Source: Flammulina velutipes (Eukaryota > Basidiomycota > Agaricomycetes > Agaricales > Physalacriaceae). From it: 64,000 nucleotides of DNA. The DNA lies in NCBI GenBank assembly GCA_011800155.1, contig CM022376.1, forward strand, positions 1,674,001 to 1,738,000, written 5' to 3'. This document shows positions 38,350-51,129 of the stretch, piece by piece (positions within the stretch are counted from its first letter, which is position 1; the number at the start of each line of letters is the position of its first letter). The translations under genes and the position numbers were made by a program. The notes under the pieces were generated by a model. That model was not told the origin of the DNA. It was given only the letters and a program-made list of their open reading frames with translations, and ran no database searches.

Positions 38350-39523
38350 TTAGAACCCATACAATACAATTCATGAAGGTCCACCATCGCCTTCGCATAC
38401 GCAGCATTCAACACCTTCTCCATCTCCTCCGCATCCTTATACACCCACGACCCCTCCTGGTTATATGTCCGCCCATTGTTGAACATCGACCCCGATCGTC
38501 ACGGAACGCATCCACAGTCTTGTAGTTTCCCTGATTCCGCTTCTGAATCTCTGCATAGAGATAGGCTGAGCTGGTAGTAGTCCGGGTAGATCTAGTCCGC
38601 GTCAGAAACCGATACATCCACCGAAAAGCAGGAAGAACTGACCTTCTTCGGGTACAGCCATGAAAAGATCACGGCGCATGTGCGCCTCCGCCTCACATTC
38701 ATACACCGCATCATGACAGTCATCGAACGCCTTCTTCATCTTCATCCTATCCTTATAGTTCGACGCCAAGTCAGGTACTCGCGTCTTTCTACGTTTCTGC
38801 AAATGTAACGGCAGATAACTAGCCTGGCGCAGAGGGGTAGGAGTAAGAACACACCGCCGTCCGGTCATCATCCTCACTCGCTATCGGCAGCGTAAGCCAC
38901 CACACCTGCCCTGCCCACCACGTTTGCGTTTCCCATTCGGTGGAGTGTCATGGTTCCACGCTTGCGCCGAGGACAGTCATTTACATCTTCCAGGTCATTG
39001 CCATTCTTCCAAGCCTAACAATATTGGTCAGTTGACAGTTTAAGACAGAAACTGGAATCACCTTTGCCCAGGTATCGTCATCGAGGTTGTCGGTGTAATT
39101 GACGACGGCGCAACATCGACCAACTACGGCCCTCAAGAAGGTCTTCCTCTTCCTTGGCAGCGCGAAGGGTTCGTCCGTCTGATAGCAGTCTGGCAGCTCC
39201 TCAACTTGCATAAGAGGTGGTGATTTCCCTCGGTTTCCTTGCGCGTGCCGGCGTTCAGCGTTCCTCGACATCTTCCTCGACATCTCTCTCGCGTCATTGA
39301 ACATTCATATCGTCAGCTTCTTCAGCTTTGAGAATAAGGCTATGGTTCAAGTCAGCAAAGAGTCCCACCACAATCCAAAAAAGCTAAAGCATACCAAAAA
39401 CTCCTCCTGCTCTTCCTGCCTTGACTTGTTATCGGACCAGCTTGAATGATCTTGTCATCAAGATCAAGTTTATACCGCACGCTGACGGGATGAACTGCAG
39501 AATAAAAACAGCCTTCGTTGTTT
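38350..39523 (-). pseudogene. STH1: STH1/SNF2 chromatin-remodelling ATPase, 3' part (end of motor to bromodomain)
   Basis: In order on the minus strand: TTKAVFILQFI (end of the helicase lobe, normally QTKAVLILRF), RYKLDLDDKIIQAG, EELPDCYQTDEPF and AVVNYTDNLDDDTWA (SnAC-region hallmarks of RSC/SWI-SNF ATPases). A basic PNGKRKRGG linker and KKAFDDCHDAVYECEAE follow, then bromodomain pieces YPDYYQLSLSLC (frameshifted), IQKRNQGNYKTVDAFRDD and MFNNGRTYNQEGSWVYKDA. Frameshifts, stops and small deletions break every stretch. It continues the 5' part at 51.1-53.6 kb; the transposon lies between. Confidence 0.85.
39517..39523. repeat. Left target-site duplication of the KDZ element (GTTGTTT)
   Basis: The same 7 bp occurs at 51,123-51,129. 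In the STH1 gene the sequence on the left of this copy continues the sequence on the right of the other copy. Joining them at one copy gives HRIDQTTKAV on the minus strand, one Thr more than the usual HRIGQTKAV, so the exact edge could differ by a few bases. Confidence 0.6.
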
Positions 39524-39554
39524 CAACCCTTGCAGCAGGGTGTACGGAAATCCC

Positions 39555-39664
39555 GTGGTTATAACCACAGAGGCGTTTTACAATTTGAGTGGTTATAACC
39601 ACACATAGGAGCCATATCCCGCTGGTTATATCCACAGGATCCTACCTTCCTGTTATATCCACTA
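39555..39664. repeat. Left subterminal palindromic repeats
   Basis: The perfect 14-bp palindrome GTGGTTATAACCAC occurs at 39,555-39,568 and 39,589-39,602. Two degenerate copies follow (CTGGTTATATCCAC near 39,622 and CTGTTATATCCAC near 39,650). They lie within 150 bp of the left end and are likely transposase-binding sites by analogy with other DNA transposons. Confidence 0.7.
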
Positions 39665-39793
39665 CTCAAGGCCTTAAGCCTCATATCTTGCACTTGAGCC
39701 ATACTAAGTCAATGATTTAAAGCTTAAGTCATTTATTTACAAGAAGATATAATACATAGTCCGTAGGTGTACATAAACATAAACGTCCGGGTG

Positions 39794-42700
39794 TCAATTG
39801 GCGCGCGGCGGGGCATCTTCCTCGTCATCGGCGTCATCACCATCTGATCCAGCGTCTCCTCCGTTATCGTGTCCTCCCTCTCTTGTAAGATCACCGTCAT
39901 GTCCACCCTCTCTCTCGCCGTCACTCTCGCGCTCCGAGTCAGATATCTCGACCCTAACATCACTGCGATCGGGAATGCGTACCCTCCGAATACGACATGG
40001 TGAGGCCCACGTCGCCTGGAAGTCCCGTGCCAGCTCGCGCCGTATCCAGGCTTGACGCTTGGCCAGCGCCACCACACCCTCCTGCCCAGCAGCGTCCAGG
40101 TCGTCTCGGGTGCATGCACGCTCAGATTCCCACTGAACGGCTTCGTGCTCGAGCGCCTTCAGCGTAAATCCACGCTCGCCAATGACCATGGACATTTCCT
40201 CCCGATAGCGCATGACCCTTGCGCGACTCTTCAGCCACTCAGAACGTAGCTGTCCCTCGACATCGTCCTTGCTCAATCCATCCAGACCGCTCTTCACCCT
40301 CCATATCCACGACAGTTGGTAGGAGCCACTGCCAAACTGGTGAACCTCCCCAGTGTTCCCGAGTTTCTTCTTCTTCGCTTTCGGAACGTCGATGTCGAAA
40401 ATTTGACTGTCCAGGGCACGGACGTCGCTGTCGTTCAAGATTCGCAAGTCGCTCTGCCAATCGCCGGGGCCACGTAAGACTAGTAACGCCTCTCGAGCGA
40501 CACGATACTTTCTGATAGCGAGCTGTGTCTTCGCCTCCAAACGGTCCACCATCTGGAATGTCCGAGTCGTCGCTGCAACGCCACGAAGATTCTTCTGGCG
40601 AAAAGCCTTGGCAGAGCGCTTCGTGCGCTGCAATGTCCGTATCGTCTCCAAAGCGTCGTGGCATTGGGCTTCCCGAAGTTTGGCTTCTCTTGATGCCATA
40701 TCAGGATAGCATCCAGCCTCACGTATCCCTCTTGGCAATGCAGAGGGTAAGAAGACTGGCTCCGTTTCGATATCACCCTCACGGCTCCCCGCCAGTTTGG
40801 CCAGCTCCCCCCGCACGCACCCCATGTAGGATCCCTGTAGTTGGCGAAATTGGGTAATATGCCTTTGGCACACGATGCGCTTTTCTTGCACGTCCTTGAC
40901 CACGCTCGGGGAGTTAGACTCCTCGCAGTCAAGAAGAAAGACGATTCTACGCCTATGTCGATAACCATGAGTTTCGCACCGTAACGCCTGAGGAAAAAAC
41001 GTACTGCATGTCCTCAATAAGGAGTCCGAGCATAAGGCATGCTGTTGCCGTTGTCTCGTGGATCGCCGGGATTACACGATTGGCCCTGCGCTCAGTCTCT
41101 TCCAGTGCCGTTTTGACTTCGTTCATCGTCTTGTCTGGAGAGATAGATATCAGCAGGAGTATCAAAAGAGCTGAAACCCTTGACTCACATGTTACAGCAT
41201 TGTAGTAGGGACTGTCAAGCGACTGGTCTGCCTCCCATGCCTCCACCTGCTTTACCCAGCGTTCGGCGCATCCAGGCTCCAAGATTGCTGTGAACTCTTC
41301 ATGAGCATCCAATTGTTGCCGGTAGGACGCCTGGGTTTTGGCCAGACGCCCGTGAAGATGAGCTCCTGGCATACAAACATTAATACTGGTACAATCATAA
41401 AGAATAAGAGATGAAACCTACCTAACGATATGAACTTCTGCCAGTTATGGGCAGAAAAACGCCGATCCAATGTGTCGTGTCGCGCACCCGATAGCATTTC
41501 CTTCGTCGACGATGCAGCGTGGTTGAGCTGAGACCATAGCCTTTCTATGCCTTCGCCGTCAGTCCTGCCGATGCCCGGTTGAATGTTCATGCAATGACAG
41601 CACTGACAGTCGAATTTGTGCCCCTTGCAGTGGCATTTCGGAATTCCGCCACATACTCTCACACACTCCGGAAGCCTAAGATGCTCAGGCATAGTCGCCA
41701 TCCGCTCGTTGAAACGTTTCCGGTATTGACACCATATGTCGTAGGAAACGAAAAGCTCTTTGAGCTTGTCGCTGTCAGCGGAAACGGCGGACAGCAAGAT
41801 GTAATCCATGTTACAGTAACTAAAAAGACGATTTGTGAGTAACGTTGTCTGCGTATCAGAGGAAAATCGTACCGTTCTCCTCGCTGTAAGTCGCCGACTC
41901 CCAATGGGCGTATCATCTCATGCCGCGCACAAACTGCCATTCCCACACCCGTTGCCTGGAGCCCCGACGTCTCCTTGGTCTCAGCATGGGCTAGCGTCTT
42001 GAAGCCGCTGCAGGAACTAATCTAGACGCTGTTAGTGCACCAACCTCAGAGGATTTGGAGATTGACTTACATCTTTCTGTTTGGGGTTGTCAGCCAGATG
42101 CTCGAAATATCCCTGGTTTGCGACGAAGTAAGCCATACCCGTGTGTAGGCCAGGATCCAATGACGACGGACGGCGCAGGTTTTTGAGGCGGAAGTTGGCA
42201 TCGAGAGCAAGAATCAAGCGAAACCGATACCTAGCAGTGTTCAGCATGTTAGCTATACCATTAGAAAACGACAACATACTGTTCCGAGAGCGGCAATGAA
42301 TCCCAATCATCCGGGAGGTTGACGCCTGGGCGTGGACACGCAGGGCATCGAACAGCCAATCCACCCGGTGCAGTCGTCACAATACCGTCCTGAAAAGCCC
42401 CACGTCCCGCCCGTTTAAGCATCTTGATGTGCCCGAACTGCCTGTTCATGCGGAACAAGGCTTTGGAACGATCCTGGGGTGGTGGTTTAGTACATAGAAG
42501 AAAATAAAAGATATAACACACTTTAGGCACATGAATGCCTGTATTGTCTGTACGCCTAATGAGACTGTTATAGAATTCATGGTTTGAGAGACGTCCGGTG
42601 GCCGAGAGCATCTCGAATGCCTCCAGAGTGCGGAACGTTGCTCCTGTCTTGGGAAAACGCGTCGTTGCCGGCATCACCTCCGAGCGAAGCAGCTGGATAC

Positions 42701-43487
42701 GAGCAGGTTCCCTTCGCTCACACCCACAGAAGTCAATGTTGACAAGATGTATGCCATTGTCGTGAATCATGGTGAACGTGCGGTGGGCCGCAATCGGTCG
42801 AATACATGGGGAACCAGCATGGGGGCCAAGCTGAATACGGAGACCTAGTTGGCGGAGAGATACTGGTTTAAAGAACGCTTCTGAATCCCAGCACTACGGC
42901 ACAGACGTCAACTAAACGGACATGGTTGGAGTGACAGCACATACCTTTATCCGATGAAAGGGCAGTCGTCGGTGGCTCTTGACAATGCAGTCTCCACACT
43001 CCATGAACGCCCCGAAACAGTCCTCGCAGGTGTATGAAGCCTCTCTCGGGACCGCCTCGATTCCCTCATTCCGGAAGCGCTCAAGACAAGCCCCACACGT
43101 ATTGGCGATGCAGTCTCCTCGTCCTTCAAGGCGGACAAACTCGTCCAGGAACTCTTGAGGCCTTTCATCCTCCACCCAACATAGTAGTGCTTGGTCCTGG
43201 AAAAAAAGCGTTAGAATATATTATCACTGTTGGTTCCATTAGCTTACTGAATTCGCATACCGACGCTTTCTCTTGGGGCCAACAGCGGGCGAAACGACTT
43301 CGGGGAGATATTCCTCGCTCCTCAGCACAGCCCTTCCTTGGGGAGCGTTGACACGAGCGATAGGTACCGGGACGGATGTAATATTGCGTCGGCGGTCTCC
43401 CGAGAGACCCAGTGTTCTTGCTTCCAGTAGTTCGTCGTCGTTGTCGTCGCAGTCAGCTCGGGCAGGCCGTTTGGTTCCTTTGGCCAT
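39794..43487 (-). CDS. KDZ-superfamily transposase
   Basis: Ten exons (43248-43487, 42945-43196, 42522-42893, 42280-42473, 42071-42230, 41873-42021, 41422-41819, 41189-41365, 41005-41134, 39794-40952) sum to 3231 nt, or 1076 residues. After a basic N-terminus comes the CxC-type zinc cluster (about residues 95-160: CGACLERF, YTCEDCFGAFMECGDCIVKS, HRRLPFHRI). The RNase H-fold catalytic motifs follow: LALDANFRLK (Asp about 363), SYDIWCQYRKR (Asp about 483), a Cys/His cluster PKCHCKGHKFDCQCCHC, and GRTDGEGIERLW (Glu about 548). The C-terminal third is charged and ends in an acidic tail. All catalytic residues are present, so the enzyme may be active. Its acidic tail and exon count are as expected for fungal KDZ transposases. 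Confidence 0.93.
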
Positions 43488-43688
43488 CGAGTTGATGATG
43501 GTGTAATAAACAAAGAATTATTCCTCACGTGACGGATTCGACGCGTGAGGTGCATCACTGCAATTTCAACCATTGAATCAAAGCATTACATGGCAGTTGC
43601 AGCAAGAAATACATTTCACCAGACAGACACTACAAGAAATACTGGATACAAACGGTGCAAGATACACAAGACTAAGACGTCAGGAAAA

Positions 43689-44445
43689 TCAACTAAGCCC
43701 ATCGTCGTCCTCCTCCTCCTCCTCGTCTGGGGACATCCCAGACATCAGGAACGCCTCAACATCGGAATGCGACCAGGACCTATTCAGGGTGCAATCTTCA
43801 CCAGCAGACTTGCCCGCGTCGTAGGCTGCGATAGCCTTCGACCTATAGGACATGAGTTAGTAGTTCCGGCAATAACTTGGTTGACTCACGCGGACGAAAA
43901 AACCTGGCGATCGCGGCCAGACCTGACCAGGAAATATGGATCTCTTGAGGTGGGTGTGGAGGACGACGAGATGGAAGGCGCATATCGCACGCCAGGAAAA
44001 TGCGTCCCTCGGAAGTCAAACGATGACGATGGCGTCGGAGCTCTAGAGGCCGTTTTTGTGGGTGAGGATGGGGCAGTCGGAGTAGAGACAAAGGATTGGT
44101 CGAGACGTGGTCCATTCTTTCGTGGCGAGGATTGCGGGGTTGAGTGCTGGGTACCATGAGTGTGGAGAGAAAGACAGATATCCCTCCATTTGACCTGAGC
44201 GTCGGAGTAGGAGTTCGTTCGAGTTGGTTTGATCTCGCCTTTGGCCAGAGGCACAATCTCCCTGGATGTTGGTAAGAAAAGAACAGTTGTCTTCAAGGAA
44301 AGACTTACAATGAACTGTATATCCCTTGGTGGTCGCCGTTCGACTTCACGTAGTAGCGAGGGAAACTGGATACCGATTGGCCCTCCTCCGAGGGAGCACA
44401 GTAAAACGTCGGCGTACAGCTGCGTCGTGAATTGCCGCTTGCCAT
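43689..44445 (-). CDS. Transposon cargo: protein with two RNase H1 N-terminal (viroplasmin-like) domains
   Basis: Three exons (44309-44445, 43890-44261, 43689-43842) give 220 residues. Near residues 28-80 the pattern RYYVKSNGDHQGIYSSLEIV...SYSDAQVKWRD fits the small RNase H1 N-terminal fold (YYVV..G...GIY..W......G......F.....A...). A second, weaker copy sits at the C-terminus: PYFLVRSGRDRQVFSSASKA...SWSHSDVEAFL. Between them is a Ser/Thr/Pro-rich linker, and the end is acidic. In other proteins this fold binds RNA/DNA hybrids or double-stranded RNA. No RNase H catalytic domain is attached. A role as nucleic-acid-binding accessory factor of the transposon is inferred. Confidence 0.65.
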
Positions 44446-44626
44446 GCTCGATGATGGTGGTTCAACAATGAGAGTAAAATATTCCAAGTTGAACCAAAGA
44501 AGCCCACGTCACATGTCCGGTGTACTAAACCACGCCCGTAATTAAACCCGCGGACGAGAGACTATATCATGCATCGTATATTGACGCAGGTAGATGACAA
44601 GAAACATACATGGCACTATACACTAT

Positions 44627-45593
44627 CTACAATTCGGGGGACTTGGTACGGGAGCGCTCGCGCGCAAAGTCTCGCAACATCATCGCAATGCCCTCTATCT
44701 CCTCGATGTCATCCACAGACATAGCATCCAGGTCCTTCTCGGCGATTTTGCGGAGCGTGCGCGACGACGGCCAAGAGCCCGCGGGCCAAGCGGACGAGGA
44801 GGTAGATGCGACGGGCGTTACTGGAGCGACGGTTTTCGACGGGGGAGGGACGGGCGAAGGAGTCTTCTTGAACTTGACAGCGACGGGCTTCTTAGAAAGA
44901 GTTTTGGGTCGAATAGGACGTGGGCGCGGGCGTTCACCAGAGCTCTTCTTGACAAGGGGAACCTTGGGATCGAGGAGATCCATCGGCCTCCACACCGTAC
45001 CCCCGTCCTGGCGGTAACGTAGCATATCGATTGCCCACATCAAAGCCGGCCACCAAAATGTCTGTTTCCGAATGTTAGTATTTGGTTGTAAGATGTAAGA
45101 GGGAAATAATACCTTGTGACGCACACGGCGACGTGCACTGTAGGCCTCGTCGAGTTCGTCGAGCTCACGCACGAGCTTAAATTCGACATCACACACTGTC
45201 TTGAAGTGTTTGCAAATAACGCGGTCTGAAATCCTATCGCGTCGAGCCTGGATAGCCGCCAGAGCCTGGACGCGAAGGAAGGGATACAGCTGGCTATTCT
45301 CGCTTCCGAGGCCCTACACAAAACAGTTAGACAGGACGACGTTCATGAACGAAAGTGGTGGACTGACCTCTGGACGCTTGGGCGTCGATAAGAGTGTCTG
45401 TCCAGGCAGAAGCTTCCTGCGCTTGGGCTTCGAGCGCTCCAAAGTCAGTTTTTTGATTCCGGGCTTGGGTGTCGAACGGCGCCTCTATGAAAACACTAGA
45501 TTAGAAAAGAAAGCAGTAATGACAGACATTACTTACCTCAGGGACCTTCGGGGATGGCGACGCTGATTTCTTCTTGGTCGACGTGCGGGCCAT
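44627..45593 (-). CDS. Transposon cargo: basic Lys/Pro-rich protein of unknown function
   Basis: Four exons (45537-45593, 45368-45484, 45113-45313, 44627-45061) sum to 810 nt, or 269 residues. The N-terminus is strongly basic (RTSTKKKSASPSPKVPE, KRRKLLPGQTL). A middle helical part (FKTVCDVEFKLVRELDELDE, ARRRVRHKTFWWPALMWAID) may be the folded core. The tail is Pro/Ser-rich and ends in an acidic-basic helix (SVDDIEEIEGIAMMLRDFAR). No known domain. Its intactness and position between the transposase and the divergent promoter suggest a function in the element. Confidence 0.7.
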
Positions 45594-45929
45594 ATTGGTG
45601 GTGGTGGAAAAGGTGGAAAGTCGATACGTGGGAGGACAAAAATAGAGGGGGAGCGACGATCCCAACTGTACAGTTGGATAGAGACTCCGACTAGTGTGTG
45701 CCGAGGAAAGGCGAGGACCCGGCTCGCCTCCCCGTAAGGAGGAGCTGGCGTGATCTATCCATATTCGTGGCCATGAATTTAATCGGCGTCTCCAAATGTG
45801 ACCGGAATGTGTGGCGCACAGAACTGCCAGGTCGATGTTGTTATTCCCCGCTGACGGTATAGTACTACAGACGACGATGCGACCCACGTTCCGATGCCCG
45901 TAAGATGCCCATAAGAAAAAAGAGGCAGG

Positions 45930-46612
45930 TCATACTTTTTGCTGGTACAGGAGCCGCCTGTCCTTCCAACGTGTAAGAAGCTTGCCCTTATCTGCCCACT
46001 GGCGCATGTCTTCAACGTAGGAAAGTACTCGGGTAAAGCGGTCACGTATCGCTGCCCCTTCCTTCCAGAGGTCGTCCAAAATGCCCACTTCTTGGCGGAT
46101 GGTCTCCAGGCCCGCTTCTATGTCCTTGAGCTGGAGCGCGAGACTCGTCTCCACATCCATTAGGGCCATACGACCATCCTCTGACTCCTTCGAGCGATAC
46201 TCAGCTATAAGCTCACTGGCATACGCTCGCAGCTGACTGTCGTTGGATTGGCCTCGCAATACAGCGTCTATCCTGCGCAAACGTCGAATGCATCGTTGGA
46301 CTAGACGGTTATCGATGAACCTGTTCCCAAATGAGTTGACTTATAACACAGTTGAACGAGGACGTCCACGAACCTGTCGGGAATGCTCTGAGGTGTTTGT
46401 AGGCGACGACGACGATCGAGGGGTATAGCGACCTTGGCGTCATATTTATTGCGCATCTTGATGAGCTCTTGCTCACGGTTGCTGTAAGGCTGGCGTCAGT
46501 AGAAGTAATGGAGAAGTATTAAGGGCACGCACTCGTTGTACCACGCCATTTTCGAAGCCCTACGAGCCTCACGACGCTCAGGAGAGGAGTTGTAAATCCG
46601 CTTGCGTCCCAT
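45930..46612 (-). CDS. Transposon cargo: basic-region coiled-coil protein (bZIP-like start)
   Basis: Three exons (46533-46612, 46374-46481, 45930-46320) sum to 579 nt, or 192 residues. The N-terminus SSPERREARRASKMAWYNDN followed by REQELIKMRNKYD resembles a basic region, and long helices follow (LRAYASELIAEYRSKESEDG, VETSLALQLKDIEAGLETIR, QEVGILDDLWKEG). The Asn and Cys/Ser positions expected of a bZIP basic region are not clear, so this is only bZIP-like. It is the first minus-strand gene from the divergent promoter. A regulator of the element's genes or a DNA-binding accessory factor is possible. Confidence 0.65.
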
Positions 46613-47224
46613 CGACTACCTGTACTGTCGACAAAATTAGCAGGTGAGTAATGAGAAAGAGATTGAGAACTTACTTGGTGTAGGTCCAGGCAAGTGACAG
46701 CGGGAGCCTGCACGTCAGAGGGGGCGTCGACGGTGGTGGTCGAAAGCTAAGTGACGTTCGCTATGCAGATTTGGTTGGCCCTACCAGATCATTGGACATT
46801 AATTGGACACATACCCTATACCTCCGGGAATATGTGGAATGGTTGGTGCCATCGTCAAGAGCAGGATCCATCGTGCTAGGATATGTGATTGTTAGGCATA
46901 GAATGGGTTGTGGAAGGATTCTATGTCCACAACTTTGGTCGTTTCGGAGACCCTGGACCAAGGCCCGGGATATTGACCATTGGACATTAATTGGACACAA
47001 ACTCGATGCGTCGCTATGGCTCAAATAATGATCAGGATATATTTCATACACGGTTTATACACTATTCTACTGACTTGCGATAGCTTTACAAGTGTGCACG
47101 ACACTTATATGTACCAGTCGCAGGCAAGTTGGATCAGTTGGGTTCGGATGTCCGGGAAGCGGCAGAGCGGCATGAAAGGGTACGATCAGATTCCGCGGGA
47201 ACAAATTTTCATCCAACCATCATC
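46613..47224. promoter_or_regulatory. Divergent promoter region inside the transposon with duplicated 19-bp motif
   Basis: The region between the leftward and rightward gene groups carries two exact copies of TTGGACATTAATTGGACAC at 46,792-46,810 and 46,980-46,998, each built from two TTGGAC half-sites 11 bp apart (about one helical turn). This is the layout of a site bound by a dimer. No start codon or coding frame is supported in between. Confidence 0.5.
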
Positions 47225-47805
47225 ATGTTGTTGAAAATGTAAGTGCGCTCGTCGAAATCAGGGTTCCCTGTTTCTGATGTGATACAGGTTCAAGGGCACC
47301 CGCAAGGATTTCCTCCTGTATTTCCTGGATCGCTTCGAGACCGCCAAGTCCCAAGGGCAGACTGCACTGGTCGTCGACATAGTTTTCCTCTTTTACGTCC
47401 GCCGATACACTTGGTGGGTCCCCATCGACGAAGAGCTCATTGCCGGCACAACCTACGATGAAAACACCCTGCCGCCGGATGTCATGGCGACCAAGGGCGC
47501 GAAGATGATCGAATTGCGCGAGGTACGTCTGAATTAACCATGGCGCTGCTATTACTGATTCACGGACGCAATAGCTCATCAACAACTACTACGAGTATGT
47601 CTACGCGCGCCACAACCTCTGCGAGGACATCTACAAGTTCGAGCAACGTTTCAAAACAGAGTTTTGCATGGTGGATCACACGGGGAGGAAGGCTACGGCG
47701 ACGAGGAACTTTGAGTTGGAGCCTGAGCAGGATTACAGCGACGTTCCTGGATTGCCTGGACCCCAGCCGGGGATGAGCCGTCTGTGGAAGGTGGTGCCTG
47801 CTTAA
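47225..47805 (+). CDS. Transposon cargo: short TWW-domain protein
   Basis: Three exons (47225-47238, 47288-47522, 47575-47805) sum to 480 nt, or 159 residues. The core FKGTRKDFLLYFLDRFETAK...RYTWWVPIDEELI...TYDENTLPPDVMATKG matches, residue by residue in spacing, the N-terminal region of the next gene (RLEFL...FTWWLPMDQEP...VYDEATLSEEDMALKG). It then has its own C-terminal end (YARHNLCEDIYKFEQRF). The first exon is only 14 bp, and the start could lie farther upstream. No enzymatic motif is seen. Confidence 0.65.
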
Positions 47806-48014
47806 ATTTTTTCTGCTTTGGCCTGTAGACGTCGGCAACTAGTTGAATACACGTGGCTCCATTATTCTGTACGATTCGACGGTGTTCTAACGATGTGACT
47901 TTGTACTGCTGAGCCGAAGAGGTAAGCTAACTACACGAAAAGCCTGCCCCTCTTTTCCTTCGTTCGACAACTCTAACGGTTAACCTAACATCGCATCAAC
48001 CTGGATCCTTCGAG

Positions 48015-50132
48015 ATGGCAGTGTATGTATCTGATATTCTGTTCTCGGATCATCCTAACATTGATACAGGGATGTATCTCCATTTCGCCGGAATTGGGCC
48101 AAGGGTCAGCGGCTGGAGTTTCTCAACTGCCACCAAGATGCACATCGAGCGAAACGACGCAAAGGCCGAAACGCAGGTTTTGAATACGCCCACGAAGTCG
48201 TCAACGCTTTCGTCAAGAAATTTACATGGTGGTTGCCTATGGACCAGGAGCCGGATGATAGCACGGTCTACGACGAAGCGACACTCAGCGAGGAAGATAT
48301 GGCGCTCAAAGGACAGGCTTTAAGTCGCCTGACGAAGGTGAGCCTTTTTTTCTTTGCATAGAATTCTTTTCTAACTCCCGCAGGGCATCGAAAACTTCTT
48401 TGAGAATCGTTGGGGGTCAGCAGACCCAATCGCGCGCATGACGAAGGCAGACATTGCTCGCAATCCACTGGCTGCCCTCCTCGCCAAGGTGTCGGGCGTC
48501 AAGCTCCAAGGGCAACGTCGTCGAGGTCTTACTCCCTTCCAAATGTGGTCAAAAGAGCAGTTCGGGACCGTTCGAGACGATGTGGACGAGGAAGTGGAGG
48601 AGGAGTGCGTTAGCTCACAGAGGGGACGTGTGGCGAAGGCGCAAGCTCATTCGATGGCAGCGTTCAAAGCGCTACCGGCTGATGAGCAAGCAGTGTGGAA
48701 GGAGCGGGCCCGGGAGGATCAAGCGGCGGTAGCGAGGGCAAAGGAGGCATTGAGCGGTCCTCTTACTCCTCTTGGTCCAGTTGAAACGCAAGAGTGCGTC
48801 ACTTTCTTTCTTTCATACCCTGCCCTTCACTAACTTTTCTCAGAGTCATTGATAACCTGGCGAATACGATGCAGGAATTTATCGAAGGGTTGGCCATCCT
48901 CACGAGTGGCAACGTCTCTATAATTTGGGCTGGCCCGGAACCTGTGAAAGGTGGCCAAGTGAACGTCGTATCGTAAGTGCAGGTTTTGTATTCCCTTGCA
49001 TATTTGGTCACGCTATATTCTAGAGTGCACGCGGGAGCGAACAAGGCTGCTATCCCGGAGACGTTCGATATGGCGGGCGGTGAACGGGGGAAGAGGCGTC
49101 GCAAGATAGTCGAAACAGCGTTCGGCGAGTTCGCCATGGAATGCTTCAGTGCGTGTTCAGGCCATACGCGTAATGTGTGCTAATGTATTTTTAGCCATAA
49201 GTGAGCAAGAGAAGCGCACACTTCCGACAGTCGCCGTGTCCCAGACCATGCCCTCGTTCATGAGACAACCTAAGCCTTGGAATACTGTTGGGGAAGCCCT
49301 CCCAGTCCTGTCTACCGCCTCGCCACTTCCCCTCCATGGATCCTCAGCACACAAGCGCCCTGCCGACACGAATCTGGAGGGCTCGAACGCCAAGAAACGA
49401 GGTTCGGTTTTGGACGACAACGAGGACTACGAACCCGACGATCAGACACTCGGTCCCACTGAGACTAGGGCGATGCCAAGGAGAGGATCAAGAGCAGCGT
49501 CGGGCAATTCTCCCGCTCCTCCCTCGAGCGTCCCTCCCTTGGCCTCCTCTCCTCCTGCTCCTCCCTCGGCCTCTCCTCCTCCCGTTCCTCCTCCCGTTCC
49601 TCCTCCCGCTCCTCCCGAGAAGGAGATCAGGTTGCTCCCAGATTGGATCGCACGGGCCGAAGAACGACTCCTGGCTTTTGACGTGCCGGTGGAGTTCCGA
49701 AAGGTCATCGAGCTTTGGGTACAATTAGAAACCCAGGATCCTGCGAAGTTCCCCGATCCCCTCCCCTTTCTACCCGCTACAAAACGACCCGGTTGGGTCA
49801 CCTTTTGGATTGCCCGAGGACGCTCCAGGGAGGACGATTTTTCGTCGAAGAAGCACACAGCCCTCTCGAGAGAATTTTGGCAGTGGTGGATTTCCATTCA
49901 GCCAACGTGGCGCGGAGTGAAAATAGGCGACATATGTGTCATGAACGAACACCGTCCCGATGCTGGCGACGAATCTTGGGGATCTTTGGACACACGTGGA
50001 ATCAACGGATTTCTTTCCGTGCTGATGGCGCTCGGCTGGTGGGGGGAGGTAGCAGTGGATAGTATGACAGACTTAAGTGACTGGTATCGGGCGTCGAGTG
50101 ATGTAGGTTGGGTTCTATCGTGTTTGGTGTAG
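48015..50132 (+). CDS. Transposon cargo: long TWW-domain protein with HMG-box-like segment
   Basis: Six exons (48015-48022, 48070-48337, 48384-48793, 48844-48972, 49024-49148, 49195-50132) sum to 1878 nt, or 625 residues, all in phase. Residues about 10-95 form the domain shared with the short protein (FTWWLPMD, YDEATLSEEDMALKG). Residues about 120-210 (GLTPFQMWSKEQFGTV...HSMAAFKALPADEQAVWKER) have the Trp and Lys spacing of an HMG-box-like fold. A middle Ala/Val-rich part (GNVSIIWAGPEPVKGG), a basic KKR patch, a proline-rich spacer (49,510-49,610) and a conserved-looking C-terminal domain (FWQWWISIQPTWRG, GLDTRGINGFLSVLMALGWW-type residues) follow. Proteins of this build recur in Agaricomycete genomes. 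DNA binding is an inference. Confidence 0.75.
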
Positions 50133-50229
50133 TCTACCTCGGACTTTTTCTTGTTCATTGCATACATATGTTATTGTTATTTTGTACCATGACCTATATG
50201 TACAATGTATATCTTGCTGAGCTGTAAAG

Positions 50230-50778
50230 CACGAGGCGCATCCACCGCTTCTGGGGGCAATATTGCCCCGACGACTGTGTATTAGATCCAGAGGCATTCG
50301 GACGGTGCGTTCCCGCCGCTTTCACCCATTCCCGTACTTTTGGGTACACACGGGATTTGCCGGGGTCTGGTACATCCGTGGCGCACGAAGCGCATCCAGC
50401 GCTTCTGGGTACGATATGGCCTCAATTACACTAGATACCTTGTGAAGTCCCTTTTGCCAGTATGAATGTCATTTTTTAAAGCATTTGCAAGGCGCGTTCC
50501 CGCCGCTTTTGCCCATTCCCGTACTTTTGGGTACACACGGGATTTGCCGGGGTCTGGTACATCCGTGGCGCACGAAGCGCATCCAGCGCTTCTGGGTACG
50601 ATATGGCCTCAATTACACTAGATACCTTGTGAAGTCCCTTTTGCCGGTATGAATGTCATTTTTTAAAGCATTTGCTAGGCGCGTTCCCGCCGCTTTTGCC
50701 CATTCCCGTACTTTTGGGTACACGCGGGATTTGCCGGGGTCTGGTACATCCGTGGCGCACGAAGCGCATCCAGCGCTT
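50230..50778. repeat. 187-bp tandem repeat array
   Basis: Nearly identical units start at 50,307, 50,494 and 50,681; the third ends early near 50,778. A degenerate partial unit lies at about 50,230-50,306. Each unit contains CCCGTACTTTTGGGTACACA, an imperfect hairpin, and GCGCATCCAGCGCTTCTGGG. High identity between units indicates recent amplification or gene conversion. It lies between the last cargo gene and the right end. Confidence 0.85.
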
Positions 50779-51122
50779 GTAGATGTTCTATTGATTGATA
50801 CACTGGTAAAATGAATAGAATAATGAATAAAGATGATATTTCCGAACTATTGGAGGTCGTAGCAGCCCGCTATCCGCGCCTATCCCGCCATATCTGCCCA
50901 ATAGCGCGCCAGAGGGTTAATGCCGGGAATTGCCGCTGAAAAGACAGCCCGAGAAGCCCGAAAATGATAGCTTTTAAAAGAATACTTTAATAAGGGAGTT
51001 AAATATAATTATTACAAGGGAGAAATAAACTGTGCTAATTTGAGTGTTTATAACCACACATGAAGGCAAAGCCCTGTGTGGCTACAACCACTACCTTTTG
51101 GGTAATATTACAGCCTGGCCTG
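50779..51122. repeat. Right terminal region of the transposon with subterminal repeats
   Basis: Near 51,040-51,055 stands TGAGTGTTTATAACCACACA, close to the left-end sequence TGAGTGGTTATAACCACACA in the same orientation. TGTGTGGCTACAACCACT follows near 51,075. The last bases are CAGCCTGGCCTG. No gene is present. Confidence 0.6.
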
Positions 51123-51129
51123 GTTGTTT
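51123..51129. repeat. Right target-site duplication of the KDZ element (GTTGTTT)
   Basis: Second copy of the 7-bp flank found at 39,517-39,523; see the left copy. Confidence 0.6.

Follow-up and report, generated by a model that had tools for sequence, protein, structure and literature searches.

A probable recently transposed, TET-less Kyakuja element with paired subterminal boxes in Flammulina velutipes

Do six genes that lie between two copies of the heptamer GTTGTTT in Flammulina velutipes form one mobile element, and if so, of which class and how recently did it move? The window analyzed here is the whole stretch of 64,000 nucleotides, C9:1674001-1738000, of a 38.1-Mb assembly in 23 contigs (C-numbers denote contigs of that assembly; positions without a contig are those of the window). 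A first-pass annotation had read 39517..51129 as an intact, multi-gene KDZ transposon. Our results support an intact transposon of the KDZ class and refine it to a Kyakuja-like one, by its 7-bp duplication and CA..TG tips. We are highly confident that it is a DNA transposon of the Kyakuja (KDZ) type, complete, TET-less and recently transposed.

Borders, copies and insertion site

The element, its target-site duplications and the surrounding host sequence are:

39524..51122, no strand: whole element, read as Kyakuja, 11,599 bp, tips CAACCCTTGC...CAGCCTGGCCTG; the homology of other copies begins and ends exactly here
39517..39523, no strand: left target-site duplication GTTGTTT, same as 51123-51129; other copies have other 7-mers at this place
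51123..51129, no strand: right target-site duplication GTTGTTT, same as the left copy; border fixed by copy comparison
38381..39523, minus strand: host pseudogene, 3' part, SNF2-family ATPase paralogue (SnAC domain), by PF14619 and homology to a paralogue on C2
51130..53501, minus strand: host pseudogene, 5' part (SNF2 ATPase), PF00176 at 5.5e-14, with in-frame stops and frame changes

Both GTTGTTT copies were found at the element borders, where they had been placed earlier. The heptamer is not rare in the window (12 occurrences vs. 7.9 expected), so that the 7-bp repeat by itself is weak proof and the weight comes from the comparison of copies. For a 601-bp probe of the left border, the matches to C9:1739836, C21, C20 and C14 began at 39,524 and ran inward; for a 601-bp probe of the right border, those to C9:1751433 and C19 stopped at 51,122. 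The borders, previously given to within a few bases, are thus exact to the base. The accompanying claim that such borders can seldom be fixed was too strong, as they are published for other Kyakuja families in the available text of PMC12730594.

Another full copy with the same ends, which the first-pass annotation had proposed to look for, was present at C9:1739836-1751433. It has identical end bases, is 99.97% identical to the window element (differing over 11,599 bp by two substitutions and a single 1-bp gap) and is flanked on both sides by CGAGGTC, not GTTGTTT. It lies on the same contig in the same orientation, 14.7 kb away. Two full copies that differ so little and have different target duplications bear out the suggestion that the element may be recent.

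More diverged copies were also observed. The left 7.9 kb of the element is present on C14, C20 and C21 (~98.3% identical over the aligned pieces, with ~2.5 kb extra inside this part on C14), left-flanked by TCGAATG, and the right 3.7 kb is present on C19 (97.3% identical), right-flanked by TCGAATG. The C14, C20 and C21 copies are mutual segmental duplicates that match over 14-17 kb. These older copies (C14:10.6k-21.1k, C20:13.9k-21.9k and C21:7.9k-15.9k) sit on small contigs, and the duplicates are >99% alike. A related element, nested in the opposite orientation, interrupts each of them; it has similar tips, and its target duplication is the 7-bp AGCTCAT, with the two sides read from different contigs. 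A duplication of 8 bp for this nested relative was considered and rejected, as re-reading gave the seven bases of AGCTCAT with one G shared with the tip. Two situations would have spoken against a single mobile unit: copies ending at other points, and the same genes sitting at fixed places without a transposase. Neither was seen in this genome, where the copies share their ends and the extra genes adjoin KDZ transposases.

Another Kyakuja family was noted at C1:1273151, C5:2825983 and C10:2219274, with left ends that are identical as far as read. Since the three identical left ends have three different flanks, that family has probably been mobile recently too. The right end of its C1:1273151 copy was looked for at C1 only and was not found there.

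The element had been described as interrupting one gene. One locus does lie on both sides, but an intact gene does not: the interrupted sequence is a decayed pseudogene or duplicate of a SNF2-family ATPase. Its 3' part matches the SnAC domain PF14619 at 1e-5 (26.4 bits, just under the cut-off of 27). When the flanks were joined with one GTTGTTT, they showed continuous homology to the C2 paralogue (81% over 2,177 columns). This paralogue (C2:3222k-3228k) is uninterrupted and serves as an empty-site paralogue; the alignment crosses the junction, and at the insertion site itself the paralogue has three bases fewer. Against a partial model of it, the window copy shows many stops and frame changes. 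Because the element copies are almost identical, decay of the host gene most likely preceded the insertion.

Tips and subterminal boxes

The element has no terminal inverted repeat. CAACCCTTGC and CAGGCCAGGC differ, and the tips are asymmetric, CAACCC...GGCCTG, reading inward CAACC.. at the left and CAGGCC.. at the right. The sole inverted pairing at the ends is a subterminal pair of 58-nt arms, 71% complementary, 31 bp in. The subterminal palindromes of the first-pass annotation are real, and comprise the following boxes:

39555..39568, no strand: left box 1, GTGGTTATAACCAC, 31 bp from the tip
39589..39602, no strand: left box 2, GTGGTTATAACCAC, 65 bp from the tip
39622..39635, no strand: left third, weaker box, CTGGTTATATCCAC, from the window match scan
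51044..51057, no strand: right box 2, GTGTTTATAACCAC, 65 bp from the tip
51078..51091, no strand: right box 1, GTGGCTACAACCAC, 31 bp from the tip

The box is a 14-bp palindrome-like sequence with the consensus GTGGTTATARCCAC, located 31 bp from the tip and followed by a second one exactly 34 bp further in; some other ends also have a third box, 33 bp past the second. With up to three mismatches allowed, the window contained five matches, all at the two ends of the element (1.6 expected; at least five in 1 of 100 shuffles).

In nine families of this genome the box pair was present at 15 of 15 distinct ends, a biased sample: the box played no part in locating the window's own ends and the C5 and C12 left ends (the latter two via duplication and CAACC), and the remaining ones came from end-sequence similarity or from the box pattern. 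The one exception in spacing, 32 instead of 31 bp, was the left end of the element at C8:470k-482k. Over the 15 ends, first boxes scored 5-7 of 7 as palindromes and second boxes 4-7 of 7; in one first box, on C1, both halves carry changed letters and form a perfect palindrome (GTGCTTATAAGCAC). Box positions alone were used to predict nine tips (C8:2186k left, C8:2198k right, both C13 tips, C8:481k, C1:1273k, C8:2096k, C5:2826k and C10:2219k), three of which are copies of one family; eight start with CAACC or CAGGCC at the predicted base and one is a single base off. At the predicted loci, duplications were found for the C13 pair (GGGTCGC) and for C8:470k-482k (AGGTGTC), and none for the C8:2186k pair.

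Genome-wide, box-like matches were in modest excess (93 vs. 67 in a backward control), and the signal therefore rests in their placement. When no more than one mismatch was allowed, the box matched 52 distinct places, 45 of them no further than 125 bp from one of 23 tips, and all 22 spacings between neighbouring boxes near those tips are 33 or 34 bp, which is partly circular for the predicted tips. The nested relative has no boxes at 31 and 65 bp, so the boxes mark one clade. Judged from the sequence, they are probably binding sites for the transposase. No published report of them was found in the main texts of the open literature, and the words subterminal and sub-terminal are absent from the main text of PMC12730594.

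All 21 aligned tips have CA, one of them after a one-base shift; this is partly independent evidence, as some were located via CAACC or CAGGCC. Perfect 7-bp duplications were found at 8 of the 9 insertions with both flanks read (GTTGTTT, CGAGGTC, TCGAATG, AGCTCAT, GACGTAC, GAAAACC, AGGTGTC and GGGTCGC), the two flanks of TCGAATG and AGCTCAT coming from different contigs. The element at C8:2186141-2197950 has good tips and boxes and no duplication (left flank ..CATAAC, right TATATCC). This six-gene relative is perhaps a product of recombination between elements.

The six genes and their conservation

The genes and non-coding parts of the element are:

39794..43487, minus strand: gene A, CxC2-KDZ transposase, 1076 aa, 10 exons, by Pfam and homologues
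43689..44445, minus strand: gene B, 220 aa, 3 exons, without a significant Pfam match but with relatives at further Kyakuja loci
44627..45593, minus strand: gene C, 257 aa, 4 exons, no Pfam match
45930..46612, minus strand: gene D, 192 aa, 3 exons, no significant Pfam match
46613..47224, no strand: divergent intergenic region between D and E, 612 bp, contains a 38-nt direct repeat
47225..47805, plus strand: gene E, 159 aa, 3 exons, no significant Pfam match
48015..50132, plus strand: gene F, 625 aa, 6 exons, no significant Pfam match
50294..50778, no strand: tandem repeat with a 187-bp unit, 2.5 copies that are 98% alike, located between F and the right end

The gene models are spliced and each runs from ATG to stop, with 23 introns in the six genes, all GT-AG. 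Under these models five further genes, B-F, are open besides the transposase, and the element contains no broken frame, just as the first-pass annotation had it. Its view of the transposase as complete was likewise upheld: gene A matches the full profile of the KDZ domain PF18758 (8.8e-63, 212 bits) and the CxC2 domain (1.7e-35, 122 bits), and an alignment of 18 sequences (gene A and 17 from the 120 homologues listed of 929) shows no variation at D363, D483, E545 and E548, which suggests that these residues are catalytic. Among the matches listed, the best homologue is from Hymenopellis radicata (53% identical), and the nearest transposases are from Hymenopellis, Cylindrobasidium and Armillaria, as unlabelled Agaricomycete CxC2-KDZ proteins.

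Gene E resembles the N-terminal part of F (35% identity, E 2.4e-7). For F, searches with the whole protein and with residues 1-325, a low-complexity query, gave no relatives at E<=0.001 among 7,992 and 7,998 scored protein candidates. Pfam found no HMG domain in the whole F protein, and the best HMG-type match was HMG_WDHD1 at E 0.14 on one exon. A single-sequence structure model of one exon was too poor (pLDDT 59) and gave no useful PDB match. The 612-bp stretch between D and E is a candidate for the divergent promoter of the first-pass annotation, and the direct repeat in it (46787-46824 and 46975-47012, 84%) is possibly a shared regulatory site.

The second C9 copy differs from the first at three places, with an amino-acid change in C and two lesions in F, a changed intron donor at 48,973 and a 1-bp deletion at 50,041. 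Because of these lesions, gene F may be dispensable or the second copy inactive.

Four further families (C8:2188k-2197k, C12:1921k-1930k, C13:1449k-1457k and C8:471k-480k) carry all six genes with order and orientation unchanged, at roughly 33-68% protein identity. Since this gene order recurs in four other families of the genome, the six genes are, as read from sequence, an element-borne cassette. Three loci had no match for one gene each: E at C8:2101k-2110k, F at C1:2831k-2840k and C at C5:2353k-2363k. Among the matches listed, with near-identical copies included and E left out of the count, 11 of 12 C clusters, 25 of 26 D clusters and 32 of 33 F clusters lie within 13 kb of a KDZ match, vs. 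an expectation of at most 6.2%, the share of the genome within that distance of a listed KDZ match; a few clusters on small repeat-rich contigs (for example, C14:4746 and C21:2155) are near the KDZ gene of another element. The exceptions are one C and one D at the same locus near the end of C19, and an F at C13:1005371. Five weak E-like matches (33-35%) were found elsewhere, four of them >13 kb from any listed KDZ match.

Comparison with the C20 copy, which is damaged (its B is interrupted by a stop at codon 138 and has lost 1 bp), gave a pooled dN/dS of 0.24 for A-D, from 29 synonymous and 23 non-synonymous changes (approximate p 5e-7). Separately, the ratios were 0.30 for A (p 0.005) and 0.06 for B (p 3e-5), and those for C (0.57, p 0.48) and D (0.19, p 0.08) were not significantly below 1. 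The same holds for F against C19 (0.56, p 0.07), and gene E had one change only. Mismatches between copies amounted to 9.8 per kb in coding sequence vs. 15.0 in intergenic and 22.1 in intronic sequence.

Class, proposed mechanism and role of the accessory genes

Kyakuja elements are described in the available text of PMC12730594 (Kojima 2025) as having 7-bp duplications, CA..TG tips and no terminal inverted repeats, and Zisupton and Dileera as having 8-bp duplications, with terminal inverted repeats in Zisupton. The element carries the full PF18758 profile with its D, D and E residues, as in the KDZ superfamily, and ends in CA..TG between 7-bp duplications, without terminal inverted repeats; its placement in Kyakuja over the sister groups is by tips and duplications, not by tree. 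According to the same text, TET+ Kyakuja elements, including Kyakuja-1_LB and Kyakuja-2_LB, share the 7-bp duplications, CA..TG tips, absence of terminal inverted repeats, KDZ transposase and an Agaricomycete host with the window element. In contrast to them, it yielded no TET/JBP gene and has five other genes in conserved order and paired subterminal boxes. No TET/JBP gene was found on C9 at all, and genome-wide there were only three weak matches below the cut-off (C1, C6 and C8). KDZ elements of ~9-11 kb, KDZ1-3, are reported in the available text of PMC12810828 to be mobile in Cryptococcus neoformans. They resemble the window element in size and in their KDZ transposase but have terminal inverted repeats of 139-241 bp, duplications of 4-8 bp and CxC1, compared to no such repeats, 7 bp and CxC2 here.

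Could the element instead be a Zisupton or Dileera? The KDZ domain is common to all three groups and the Pfam model cannot separate them, but the duplication of 7 rather than 8 bp, the CA..TG tips and, compared to Zisupton, the absence of terminal inverted repeats make this improbable. Still less probable is that the two C9 copies arose by assembly or segmental duplication and not by transposition. Their shared contig and orientation, their distance and their near identity would fit such an event, which does explain the C14, C20 and C21 copies with their matches of 14-17 kb; for the C9 pair the flanks differ, as do the perfect 7-bp duplications, and a duplication is therefore very unlikely.

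A more serious alternative concerns the accessory genes, as only the transposase may matter, with B-F as passengers of host-related or no function. The lack of significant Pfam matches, the lesions in the second copy of F and its lack of relatives in the protein searches, the loci without a match for C, E or F and the weak E-like matches away from KDZ genes are all in line with passengers. On the other side stand the order and orientation kept in four diverged families, the clustering of D and F near KDZ matches far above expectation, and the low dN/dS of the A-D pool and of B alone. The conserved order argues for a function of B-F that serves the element, and the lesions in F together with the weak constraint on C and F call for caution; on balance we regard the passenger reading as rather unlikely. 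The gene order kept from family to family and the slow change of at least A, B and the A-D pool lead us to infer a role for some of the five accessory proteins, either in helping transposition or in protecting the element.

The behaviour of RNase H-fold (DDE) transposases provides the general model for how a Kyakuja element could move. The transposase would bind the two boxes at each end as dimers via its cysteine clusters and pair the element ends. It would then cut the DNA 31 bp outside box 1, at the CA..TG tips, and join these to target strands with a 7-bp stagger. Near-identical copies could result from transposition during replication or from gap repair. Tentatively, Kyakuja may be a multi-component transposon in which the five accessory proteins and the palindrome pairs (31/65 bp) form an obligatory apparatus, so that ends described as lacking terminal inverted repeats would be symmetric subterminally and bound by a complex of transposase and accessory proteins. 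KDZ/TET elements reportedly encode extra proteins as well, said by Iyer et al. in 2014 to include one with a divergent HMG domain. The window element has extra proteins in common with them, and gene F could be this HMG-like protein, although an HMG domain is unproven in F.

Taken together, the Kyakuja class is already described, and what is new here is a base-exact, recently mobile, TET-less member and a candidate rule for its ends. An apparently recent element with exact borders and all genes open is a good template for a transposition assay of the class. For Kyakuja elements without terminal repeats, the box geometry is a candidate rule for locating the ends, and the boxes themselves name candidate binding sites that can be tested. 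The existence of a conserved five-gene cassette also prompts the question which role its proteins play.
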